Source of the DNA: Candidatus Contendobacter odensis Run_B_J11
GTDB lineage: Bacteria; Pseudomonadota; Gammaproteobacteria; Competibacterales; Competibacteraceae
Assembly (NCBI RefSeq): GCF_000531125.1
Contig: NZ_CBTK010000302.1
Location: forward strand, 1 to 64,000
Length of the DNA: 64,000 nucleotides
Direction: 5' to 3'
In this document: piece after piece, positions 10,586 to 39,161 of the stretch
How the letters are laid out: the number at the start of each line of letters is the position of its first letter
How positions within the stretch are numbered: position 1 is the stretch's first letter
Notes under the pieces: generated by a model
Database searches by the model: none
Told to the model about the DNA's origin: nothing
What the model saw: only the letters and a program-made list of their open reading frames with translations
Translations under genes and position numbers: made by a program

Positions 10586-10617
10586 GGCGGCGATCCTGTG
10601 CGGAGGCGGCTAAAGAG

Positions 10618-11049
10618 TGCAGATCATTTTACACGCAGGCAACGAATCACAGGATTGGCGGCAGGGTTGTCAGAAAATTTTACACTACTAAAGCAATCAG
10701 GTTTTCACCGCTCGCCAAGGGCAGAAATTCGGGAAAAATCGCGTTTTTGGGTGGTTTATTGATCCATGGATGTGGCAGATCACCCGATTATGGCCGCTCT
10801 GCACACTGCGCCAGAAGGCGGGGTGGGCCGAGTCGCGCTGGTTTGTCAGAAAGCTTTACACCCGGTTGCAGGGCTGAAAGGCTTGCATCAAGCTGGAATC
10901 AGCGAAAAACAAGCATTCTTATGACAGAATACCACTCAATAGTCATCAACTTTATAAAAATAAAAATATAAAAATCAAATAGTTATTTTAATTTTATCTC
11001 AAAATCCAAGGATTAGCGCTTAGGCAATAAGTTGTCAGGATTTTTTACA
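10618..11049 (+). promoter_or_regulatory. Array of 17-bp boxes upstream of a PEP-CTERM gene
   Basis: The dabA/PEP-CTERM gap (10586-11175) contains three copies of a TGTCAG-centred box ending in TTTTACA or close to it: 10668-10684 (TGTCAGAAAATTTTACA), 10844-10860 (TGTCAGAAAGCTTTACA) and 11033-11049 (TGTCAGGATTTTTTACA). A degenerate fourth is at 10618-10633. The ends TGT and ACA are inverted, giving a dimer-type operator shape. The same box occurs upstream of the second PEP-CTERM gene near 35180-35374. Position 70-450 bp before a sigma-54-like promoter fits enhancer sites for an activator such as the PrsR type linked to exosortase loci; that link is inference. Confidence 0.7.
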
Positions 11050-11115
11050 GTTGATTTGCAGAGTTTTTTGGTCAGAAATTAAATAAATTATTGAAATTAA
11101 AAAACTTTGTTGAGT

Positions 11116-11130
11116 TGGTTTTTTTTTGCA
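11116..11130 (+). promoter_or_regulatory. Sigma-54-like promoter (GG / GC elements)
   Basis: TTGG at 11115-11118, nine T residues, then GCA at 11128-11130, about 46 bp before the PEP-CTERM start. Sigma-54 promoters need GG and GC about ten bases apart; here the gap is nine, one short of the copy at 35430-35443. The missing T could be real or a homopolymer miscall. Confidence 0.55.
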
Positions 11131-11175: not shown

Positions 11176-11955
11176 ATGAATCACAAGTCACTGGTTTTTA
11201 TTGCGGCGCTGGGTTTTGCCGGTGCGGCTGATGCCACGTTGATCAATCGTGGGGGCGGGCTGATTTACGACGACGTGCTGAATATCACTTGGTTGCAGGA
11301 TGCTAATTACGCGAAAACTCAGTACGACAACAGTGGTGGCGCGTTGGGCGACGCAGACGGTTTGATGAACTGGGATACGGCGAATACCTGGGCCGCGAAT
11401 TTGAGCTATTACGATAGTGTGCGTGGCGTGACCTATAACGATTGGCGCTTGCCGACGGTGAAACCGATCAATGGCGTCAGCTTCATTCCTGTTGTCGCTG
11501 GCAATGCTACAGATGGCACTCGGGACCTCGGTTACAACCTGAGTGCGCCCGGTACACTCTATGCGGGCAGTACCGGTAGTGAGTTAGCCTATATGCACTA
11601 TCAGAACCTAGGGAATATAGGCGCTTACGACACCGGTGGGACGGCAACTGAATGTCTTAATATCGCGTCTTCCTTGGGCTGCCTGGATAATACCGGCCCA
11701 TTTGTAAATCTGATGGATACCCCAGGTACCGCTTACTGGTCGGGTACTGAGTTCGAGCCTGACACCACGCAGGCGTTTTTCTTCGAAACGTATTACGGCG
11801 AGCAGGGCATCAACTACAAGAACGCCCTCTATTACGCATGGGCCGTGCGTGACGGCAATGTTACCACCCCCTCGTCTTCCGTCCCCGAACCGGGAAGTCT
11901 CGTGTTGGTCGGGTTAGGACTGATGGGATTGGGCTGGGTGCGGCGGCGGGCCTGA
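11176..11955 (+). CDS. PEP-CTERM sorted protein with DUF1566-like domain
   Basis: A 259-residue exported protein. An N-terminal signal peptide (MNHKSLVFIAALGFAGAADA) precedes a DUF1566/Lcl-C-terminal-type domain, recognised by DDVLNITWLQDANYAKT and NDWRLPTVKPINGVSF and a late AYWSGTEFEP segment. The C-terminus is the exosortase signal: VPEPGSL, a hydrophobic helix (VLVGLGLMGLGW) and RRR. Such proteins are cleaved by an exosortase and presented at the surface or in exopolysaccharide matrix. The exosortase is not in this window. The gene stands alone, with upstream boxes, a sigma-54-like promoter and a strong terminator. Confidence 0.9.
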   Translation: MNHKSLVFIAALGFAGAADATLINRGGGLIYDDVLNITWLQDANYAKTQYDNSGGALGDADGLMNWDTANTWAANLSYYDSVRGVTYNDWRLPTVKPINGVSFIPVVAGNATDGTRDLGYNLSAPGTLYAGSTGSELAYMHYQNLGNIGAYDTGGTATECLNIASSLGCLDNTGPFVNLMDTPGTAYWSGTEFEPDTTQAFFFETYYGEQGINYKNALYYAWAVRDGNVTTPSSSVPEPGSLVLVGLGLMGLGWVRRRA

Positions 11956-35179: not shown

Positions 35180-35374
35180 TGTCAGAAAATTTTACAGTGG
35201 TTTTAGCACCTGTTTCCGTAGATCAACGGGAAGTAGCGGTTCGGCGGCTTTGGATTTGTCAGAAAATTTTACAGTGATTAACTTTATGATTTATCTATAA
35301 ATTGATAATTTCGAGCGGGTTTTGGCGGGTTTGAGCCGGGTTTACGGTTATCAGGTAGTCTGGAGAATTTTACA
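35180..35374 (+). promoter_or_regulatory. Second array of 17-bp boxes, upstream of a PEP-CTERM gene
   Basis: In the 542-bp gap between pyrG and the PEP-CTERM gene, the box TGTCAGAAAATTTTACA occurs exactly twice (35180-35196 and 35257-35273). A weaker form, GTCTGGAGAATTTTACA, is at 35358-35374. Two copies are identical to the box at 10668-10684. They lie roughly 55-235 bp upstream of the sigma-54-like promoter, the normal distance for enhancer sites. Confidence 0.75.
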
Positions 35375-35427: not shown

Positions 35428-35444
35428 TTGGTTTTTTTTTTGCA
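35428..35444 (+). promoter_or_regulatory. Sigma-54-like promoter with T10 spacer
   Basis: TTGG (GG at 35430-35431), ten T residues, then GCA (35442-35444). GG and GC are exactly ten bases apart, as sigma-54 requires. It lies about 110 bp before the PEP-CTERM start and matches the T-tract promoter at 11116-11130. Confidence 0.65.
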
Positions 35445-35552: not shown

Positions 35553-36512
35553 ATGTTCAAGAAAACTCTTTTTTCATCTGCGGTGCTGGCTGCGACCTTG
35601 TCGTTACCGGGCATAGTCAGTGCCACGAATCTAAATCCTTTTAAGACGGTCTTCGACACCGATTTCACTGCTGCTGGTTACGGCGGTATGCGTGATATAG
35701 GTACAGGTTCAATAGGCCTGTCTGGAGTTTCCGGCACCATCAGTGAGGCCTATCTCTATTGGCATGGTCCCACTAATGCTAATGCTACCGATACGAATGC
35801 CAACGCCAATGTGCTTTTCAATGGTAACAATGTGTCGGGAATCTTCTTGGGCATATCCAGTGACAACTGCTGGGGGTTTTCAAATAGCATGGCCTACCGG
35901 GCTGATGTCACTAGCTGGGTAACAGGTAACGGCAATTATTCCCTGGCTAATTTCACCAAGAATAATAATCAAGTCAACGTGAACGGGGCTTCATTAATCG
36001 TCTTCTACAAGGATGCAGATACGACCAACAACCGCGATGTCGTGATGTTCGACGGCAACGATTCCAATATCGATAACTCGTTCGATGCGAGCGGCTGGAA
36101 CATTACTTTGGCGGGCATTAATTATTCCGCTGGCTCAGCGAGTATGCAGCTTCATGTCAGTGATGGGCAGTCCTTCGACGACGATGCGCTGAAAGTCAAT
36201 GCGAGCACACTCGTCTCTACTGGTCCAATTTTCTCAGGAGATTCCGTACCTAGGGGACTCGGTGGGCCAGATAATGGTGGCTTGTGGGACATCAAGGACT
36301 ATGACGTCACCAGTTTGCTGAGTCCGGGACTTAATAGTCTTAATTTTACTACCGGAGTAAACAGTGATTGTCTTTCTTGCGTACTGATCGCTATCAGTCT
36401 ACCCGCAGGTGCTGCCCCCGAACAGCCTGGTCAAGTTCCCGAACCCGCCTCCCTTGCCCTGTTTGGCATCGGTTTGGCCGGTCTGGGCTTCATGCGCCGT
36501 CGGCGGACGTAA
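35553..36512 (+). CDS. PEP-CTERM sorted surface protein
   Basis: A 319-residue exported protein. It has a signal peptide (MFKKTLFSSAVLAATLSLPGIVSA), a beta-rich, Asn/Asp/Gly-rich body resembling DUF3344-type domains (SEAYLYWHGPTN, ADVTSWVTGNGNYSL, GASLIVFYKDADT, DVTSLLSPGLNSLNFTTG) and a C-terminal exosortase signal VPEPASLALFGIGLAGLGFM with RRRR. It is low in charge, as is usual for matrix proteins. GGGG before ATG 35553 serves as ribosome binding site. Its upstream boxes and sigma-54-like promoter are shared with the gene at 11176. The specific role is unknown. Confidence 0.88.
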   Translation: MFKKTLFSSAVLAATLSLPGIVSATNLNPFKTVFDTDFTAAGYGGMRDIGTGSIGLSGVSGTISEAYLYWHGPTNANATDTNANANVLFNGNNVSGIFLGISSDNCWGFSNSMAYRADVTSWVTGNGNYSLANFTKNNNQVNVNGASLIVFYKDADTTNNRDVVMFDGNDSNIDNSFDASGWNITLAGINYSAGSASMQLHVSDGQSFDDDALKVNASTLVSTGPIFSGDSVPRGLGGPDNGGLWDIKDYDVTSLLSPGLNSLNFTTGVNSDCLSCVLIAISLPAGAAPEQPGQVPEPASLALFGIGLAGLGFMRRRRT

Positions 36513-38572: not shown

Positions 38573-38801
38573 GGCGGATGCAGTTCCAAGCGTCGAAATC
38601 CACCGGCGCGGGCGGTTGATCGGAGTACAGCATTCCGGCTCCATCGGCCACGCGAGAGGTGGGCCGCTGCCGTATCGGGATTAACCTTGCGCTGTTACCT
38701 TCCAACACAATGTTGATCCGGTCGCCCGGTTTGATCCCGAGCGCTTCACGGATGGGTTTGGGAATGACGGTCTGACCTTTGCTTGATAGCACTGTTTGCA
38801 T
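38556..38801 (-). CDS. AbrB-family antitoxin-like protein, orphan
   Basis: An 81-residue protein with the swapped-hairpin AbrB/SpoVT DNA-binding domain (TVLSSKGQTVIPKPIREALGIKPGDRINIVLEG) and a C-terminal tail of the toxin-binding kind (VDFDAWNCIRLAKIP). VapB/MazE antitoxins of this type are normally followed by a PIN-domain toxin gene; here tilS follows, overlapping by 17 bases or more, and no toxin is visible. It may be a relic of a lost pair. The opposite strand just upstream carries a truncated PEP-CTERM gene. Confidence 0.85.
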   Translation of the reverse strand: MQTVLSSKGQTVIPKPIREALGIKPGDRINIVLEGNSARLIPIRQRPTSRVADGAGMLYSDQPPAPVDFDAWNCIRLAKIP

Positions 38802-39161
38802 CGTCGTCTCCGAGGTAAGACAGGGTGGGTTATTGATGTTTCTGGCGATGGCCCGGAAAACGACGGTGCCAATACCGCCGCTGCCCGCAATAGCTTCCTC
38901 GCCGCTGGTCCCGTCAATAATACTGCCGTTAACGGCCTACCCATTGGTGACGCTAGCCTAACGGCTTGGTACAGTGCCAACATCCAGGGTGGCTCCAACA
39001 GCTTCGTGATTGCCGCCACAAACTTCAATGATTTTGGAAACGCCGTGCTAACCAAGATTGGCCGAGAGGTTGGCCCCCCCACCATCCCCGAACCCGCCTC
39101 TCTCGCCCTGTTCGGCATCGGTCTGGCCGGTCTGGGCTTCGTGCGTCGCCGGCGGGCTTAA
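38802..39161 (+). pseudogene. C-terminal fragment of a PEP-CTERM protein
   Basis: About 110 readable residues ending in IPEPASLALFGIGLAGLGFV with RRRRA, the exosortase signal, followed by a terminator. The sequence before it (SGDGPENDGANTAAARNSFLAAGP, then LTAWYSANIQGGSNSFVIAATNF) is open but has no signal peptide or credible start; the frame runs into the divergent AbrB gene start. No sigma-54 promoter or 17-bp box is nearby. I read it as the 3' remnant of a third PEP-CTERM gene cut off when the AbrB-tilS segment was joined here. Confidence 0.7.

Follow-up and report, generated by a model that had tools for sequence, protein, structure and literature searches.

PEP-CTERM genes, boxes and promoters in the window

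The window (i.e., the whole 64-kb stretch of DNA analyzed here) carries two PEP-CTERM protein genes located 24 kb apart, each of which is preceded by copies of a 17-bp box and by a sigma-54-like promoter. The features are as follows:

10617..10633, + strand: degenerate box GTGCAGATCATTTTACA, weak; found by direct reading, missed by the search with up to 3 mismatches
10668..10684, + strand: box, exact, TGTCAGAAAATTTTACA; search with up to 3 mismatches
10844..10860, + strand: box TGTCAGAAAGCTTTACA; search with up to 3 mismatches
11033..11049, + strand: promoter-proximal box TGTCAGGATTTTTTACA, ending 67 bp before GG; mismatch search and promoter scan
11115..11130, + strand: sigma-54-like promoter TTGG-T9-GCA, GG-GC spacer 9, canonical minus one
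11176..11955, + strand: PEP-CTERM protein gene, 259 aa, Lcl_C domain and PEP-CTERM tail
35180..35196, + strand: box, exact; search with up to 3 mismatches
35257..35273, + strand: box, exact; search with up to 3 mismatches
35358..35374, + strand: degenerate promoter-proximal box GTCTGGAGAATTTTACA, ending 55 bp before GG; promoter scan
35428..35444, + strand: sigma-54-like promoter TTGG-T10-GCA, GG-GC spacer 10, canonical
35553..36512, + strand: PEP-CTERM protein gene, 319 aa

Boxes were identified in the window by a search tolerating up to 3 mismatches, with 100 shuffles as the control. This search yielded five boxes (at 10668, 10844, 11033, 35180 and 35257), as compared to 0.08 on average and never more than 1 in the shuffled window, and the repetition of the box TGTCAGAAAATTTTACA before both genes, as reported in the initial annotation, is well founded. 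Copies of TGTCAG-N5-TTTACA numbered three 5' of the gene at 11176 and two 5' of the gene at 35553; the fourth and third copies, respectively, that had been allowed for are only degenerate (10617-10633 and 35358-35374). The base identity between copies at the two loci is real, but the exact copies number three (10668, 35180 and 35257) rather than two. The TTGG-poly(T)-GCA promoter described before each gene was also seen, with nine Ts at 11115-11130 and ten Ts at 35428-35444; the one-base difference in spacer length between these two promoters had been overlooked. An alternative site with a canonical spacer at the 11-kb locus could be rejected, as the scan gave no sites besides the N9 site and, at 11193 within the gene, a weak N8 site.

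The window also contains, at 38796-39161 (+ strand), what is left of the 3' end of another PEP-CTERM gene, the third in the window, consisting of the end of a DUF1194 domain and a PEP-CTERM tail with the 5' part absent; no box was found upstream of this remnant at up to 1 mismatch.

Distribution of the box and of its putative regulator

In the genome from which the window derives (4.6 Mb, 319 contigs), the TGTCAG-N5-TTTACA pattern occurred 34 times exactly and 49 times at up to 1 mismatch, as compared to 0 and 4 occurrences, respectively, of the reversed pattern used as a control. A PEP-CTERM-type gene, as recognized by a C-terminal regular expression that also accepts LEPG, SEPG, NEPG and PLPST variants, was located within 1 kb downstream of 22 of the 34 exact boxes. 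The remaining 12 comprise two on C96, at a C79-like locus whose ORF has no tail, four that belong to a longer C263 array, one close to the end of contig C276 and five at other places; two boxes on C45, C263:609 and one on C56 are examples of exact boxes not placed before such a gene (1 kb). When the same genome was counted in the opposite direction, 7 of the 18 PEP-CTERM hits above cut-off were preceded by an exact box at a distance of no more than 1 kb, while for 11 of the 18 no upstream box was found at up to 1 mismatch; several of these 11 lie near contig ends, which accounts for the missing box in some of them. As had been suggested, the box yields a ready, if partial, PEP-CTERM regulon list for sludge glycogen-accumulating bacteria, and the idea of using it in this way dates from 2006.

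Two further arrangements of exact boxes were observed. At C263:5295-8723 (locus L043), eight exact boxes are spread across 3.4 kb 5' of one PEP-CTERM gene, at spacings of about 160 and 620-1000 bp, with segments that are seemingly repeated. At C45:374, C45:3457 and C263:609 (loci L035 and L043), exact boxes lie in duplicated-looking stretches, and no PEP-CTERM gene was seen at a distance of up to 1 kb.

The same genome encodes one PrsR (TIGR02915) above the curated cut-off (700 bits vs 503) and, adjoining it in tandem, a PrsK (TIGR02916) that also exceeds its cut-off (790 bits vs 300). A TIGR03013 sugar transferase adjoins this pair, and one RpoN and one exosortase are encoded as well. Among 39 Competibacteraceae genomes surveyed, the box was present in 12 and a PrsR match (E ≤ 1e-130) in 11, of which 10 were over the cut-off and the eleventh, G060, was a partial match below it. 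Both occurred in 10 genomes, only the box in 2, only PrsR in 1 and neither in 26; the two are significantly associated (P = 1.1e-6; Fisher's exact test), with an imperfect match of the two profiles. The two genomes with the box in which PrsR was not found are G035, a 75% complete assembly, and G012, which has three boxes and whose printed ORFs downstream of the boxes show no PEP-CTERM tail. G014 has a strong PrsR match and no exact TGTCAG-N5-TTTACA box, and a diverged form of the box may serve its regulon.

Gene context, regulator genes and co-occurrence support the proposal that the boxes are PrsR binding sites associated with sigma-54 promoters, PrsR binding and sigma-54 use being predictions from sequence. 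We consider it very probable that boxes and promoters together represent the PrsR/sigma-54 PEP-CTERM system, and the initial interpretation is supported in outline and had already been published (Haft et al. 2006). Haft et al. named PrsK, PrsR and PrsT, and described a 17-nt motif ending in TTTACA, sometimes repeated, with a second motif (-24 GG/-12 GC) located on average 62.8 nt downstream (32-92); among 167 PEP-CTERM genes from proteobacteria, the pair ("motif 1 / motif 2") was found 5' of 99 (PMC1569441). The window boxes share the TTTACA ending and the repetition with this motif as worded in the text of that paper, the distances from box end to GG in the window (67 and 55 bp) fall within its range, with a spacer of 9 at the 11-kb locus, and both window loci precede PEP-CTERM genes in a genome with PrsR and PrsK, the box/PrsR profile being common to both systems. 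The window differs in that the text describing the published motifs mentions neither homopolymer spacers nor variation in spacer length (PMC1569441). Similarly, the Aquincola tertiaricarbonis PEP-CTERM gene pepA lies, as here, behind a -24/-12 promoter, which was mapped, and a predicted enhancer, and is RpoN1-dependent, but its promoter (TGGCAC / CTGCTT) has no T-tract, unlike the window promoters (PMC9850573). Against floc_PepA, the proteins of the window score below its cut-off.

Spacer lengths and T-tracts in box-linked promoters

A search of the source genome for TTGG...TTGC was rejected as too unspecific (1187 matches vs 796 in the control). Spacer lengths were assessed with a spacing-blind scan, in which GG...GC pairs downstream of boxes were scored for spacers of 6-14 in 67 stretches (the window being one of them) of the 12 box-bearing family genomes; the single-mismatch box loci C257:29393, C12, C103 and C85 of the source genome were left out. 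Sites with a score ≥ 6 and a gap of 44-80 bp were kept, and only the top-scoring site of each locus and strand was used, or all top sites in the case of a tie. Many boxes are followed by -24/-12-like sites, and 30 box-linked sites were retained, with distances from box end to GG of 44-75 bp under this filter.

A 10-bp spacer was found in all 17 sites lacking a homopolymer run of at least 7 bases (representing 16 loci, as G013:C45 counts twice because of a tie), as compared to only 5 of the 13 sites with a T-run of at least 7 bases (P = 2.2e-4; Fisher's exact test, with independence overstated by paralogy among sites). The spacers of the 13 T-run sites were N7 (one), N8 (two), N9 (four), N10 (five) and N11 (one, consisting of C plus ten Ts); these promoters are partly paralogous, and 8 of the 13 come from one genome. 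When each stretch and strand contributed a single site, with the score threshold set between 4.5 and 7, P values ranged from 1.6e-4 to 0.02, with the weakest at the loosest threshold. As all 13 homopolymer promoter loci were also recovered by the box search, these promoters were not found by their tract alone; the promoter-proximal box is degenerate in three of the 13. Sites with a spacer of 10 that were dropped by the gap filter included G000:C263 (gap 32), G035:C40 (gap 26), G028:C2 on the plus strand (gap 36) and G012:C51 (twice, gap 32). Also dropped were the G028:C2 minus-strand sites (spacers 9 and 13, gaps 42 and 38, with no PEP-CTERM gene behind), an N7 site within the C79 gene (gap 32) and the N11 site of G028:C109d (gap 35); G028:C109b (spacer 11) and G010:C74 (spacer 12) were among those dropped for a low score.

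Homologous promoters were compared using one genome per species, i.e., multi-contig drafts with possible homopolymer errors. Alignment of the 35-kb promoter (T10) with G028 C78 (T8), from just 5' of the second box to the -12 element, covered 204 columns, in which the two differ by 7 substitutions, an indel of one base and the two missing Ts. Other homologues are G028 C77 (T9; 83% identity) and G028 C109 (T10; 79% identity). G032 C355 and G035 C65 carry GGCTTCTTTTTTGC, in which the T-run is interrupted and the spacer is 10, while G028 C91, which by eye resembles these two upstream, has C plus ten Ts and a spacer of 11. In the off-length promoters, GG, GC and boxes are all retained, and an open ORF follows wherever the contig extends far enough to show it.

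Distinct T-runs with at least 9 bases, as counted by hand, are rare, numbering 18 in the source genome and 17 in G028, and 3 and 6 of these, respectively, form sigma-54-type spacers. This share far exceeds expectation even with T-runs of this length restricted to 2% of the genome, a rough estimate whose P values rest on approximate promoter numbers and an assumed AT-rich fraction of 2%. We also considered whether poly(T) promoters are common wherever the box occurs, and rejected this on the basis of a pattern scan across the 84,980 species of genome_contigs (possibly without records of the window's own genome) that demanded an exact box 38-68 bp upstream, as pure T-tracts appeared only in the family. 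Among the 12 stretches recovered, five have a pure T-tract promoter (T7-T10) and match G028, G032 or G035; the other seven have at most six Ts after TTGG, some resembling ordinary PEP-CTERM promoters and others chance matches.

A possible slippage switch in the promoter spacer

Sigma-54 promoters require a fixed 10-bp GG-GC spacer, and homopolymer runs of about this length slip readily. With the spacing fixed, changes in the number of Ts should switch individual promoters. The activity of three Myxococcus sigma-54 promoters dropped 3.2- to 11.1-fold upon mutation of the core promoter, a 1-bp spacer deletion being among the mutations, while a fourth promoter was affected only modestly (PMC7910581). 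Taken together, the sigma-54 spacing and these losses imply that T10 promoters should respond to PrsR and that promoters with T7-T9 or 11-bp spacers should respond poorly.

We propose a mechanism in which PrsR, the response regulator that is paired with PrsK, would use the boxes as upstream activator sites and would activate sigma-54 RNA polymerase at a -24/-12 site about 44-75 bp 3' of the nearest box, leading to transcription of the genes for PEP-CTERM surface proteins. In a subset of Ca. Competibacteraceae promoters, a pure T-run serves as the spacer between GG (-24) and GC (-12), and gain or loss of Ts by replication slippage would toggle the promoter between a working (T10) and an impaired (T7-T9, or C plus T10) state, switching individual promoters while leaving the regulator untouched. 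The boxes, promoter-like sites, genes, regulator genes, their co-occurrence and the tract differences between related promoters are all read directly from the sequences. Reversible slippage within a population and a resulting effect on expression would follow from the mechanism, and phase variation driven by slippage, which we propose from the comparison between genomes, has in our view about an even chance of being correct. The retention of boxes, GG, GC and open genes fits a reversible off state better than decay. It is similarly a balanced question whether PrsR activates only those PEP-CTERM genes that currently have a ten-T tract, which would generate cell-to-cell variety in surface or matrix proteins.

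A close parallel is provided by the Neisseria genes porA, fetA and opc, in which a homopolymer between -35 and -10 makes the core-promoter spacer phase-variable (PMC2791445). In both cases a homopolymer, unstable in Neisseria and putatively so here, lies between the two core elements of a surface-protein gene promoter (PMC2791445), with the difference that the tract described here lies between the -24 and -12 elements of an activator-requiring, sigma-54-type promoter. As in porA and opc, a homopolymer is present between the core promoter elements, and homologous promoters differ between genomes (T10 vs T8, T10 vs T9).

Another reading holds that only the published PEP-CTERM box/sigma-54 regulon is present, with T-rich spacers that merely favor sigma-54 binding and tract lengths that reflect noise in sequencing, neutral drift or promoter damage. 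Ts located just 5' of the -12 element raise sigma-54 affinity, which speaks for this reading, as do the interrupted T-runs of G032 C355 and G035 C65, which keep a spacer of 10 and have similar upstream sequence. For the features that were tested, the base system moreover agrees with the one published by Haft et al. (2006). However, the off-length promoters, with GG, GC, boxes and open ORFs kept, give no impression of decay, T7 and T8 probably deviate too far to be sequencing errors, and off-length spacers were never seen among the 17 non-homopolymer sites; we regard this reading as possible but somewhat doubtful. Tract length might instead grade promoter strength, with poly(T) allowing sigma-54 to tolerate spacers of 9 bp or shorter. 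Such a rheostat is consistent with 4 of the 13 tracts being just one base short and with repeats of this kind reported at another promoter (PMC4081817), but seems unlikely given that core-promoter mutations, including a 1-bp spacer deletion, strongly lower 3 of 4 Myxococcus sigma-54 promoters (PMC7910581).

The boxes themselves could also belong to a mobile element or dispersed repeat that has nothing to do with PEP-CTERM regulation, as some exact boxes (C45, C263) lie in duplicated-looking stretches with no PEP-CTERM gene within 1 kb. Because box presence tracks PrsR across genomes and 22 of the 34 exact boxes precede PEP-CTERM-type genes, we rejected this very improbable origin for most boxes; those on C45 (two), at C263:609 and on C56 remain unexplained. 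Overall, PrsR/sigma-54 boxes combined with T-tract promoters switched by slippage would be the best joint explanation of these data, one that we hold to be rather probable.

The box/PrsR regulon has been known since 2006, and what is newly noticed here is the T-tract spacers varying from 7 to 10. No report of a sigma-54 version of the homopolymer-spacer switch was found among the matches listed in open-licence papers. To our knowledge, no promoter class with the strict sigma-54 spacer as its contingency element has been described before, and the T-tract promoters, if they do slip, would constitute the first one. If the T-tracts are contingency switches, strict sigma-54 spacing becomes a simple digital switch, placing random on/off control of individual surface proteins atop a deterministic two-component signal. 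Surface-protein variety in flocs and granules would then be readable from metagenome reads as T counts, and phase variation, which has mainly been studied in pathogens, would extend to an environmental matrix system.

Two further observations concern the promoter scan. The distances from box to GG in the 30 box-linked sites cluster near 54, 65 and 75 bp (Rayleigh test; P = 1e-6 to 4e-6 for periods of 10.5-11.5, and P of about 0.002 for the 17 non-homopolymer sites, paralogy being ignored in both); helical phasing, for which the best period is 11-11.5 and not 10.5, is only suggestive. In addition, the low-scoring, box-linked promoter-like site of G028:C109b (locus L189) has an 11-bp spacer with a run of seven As, possibly a second kind of slippery spacer.
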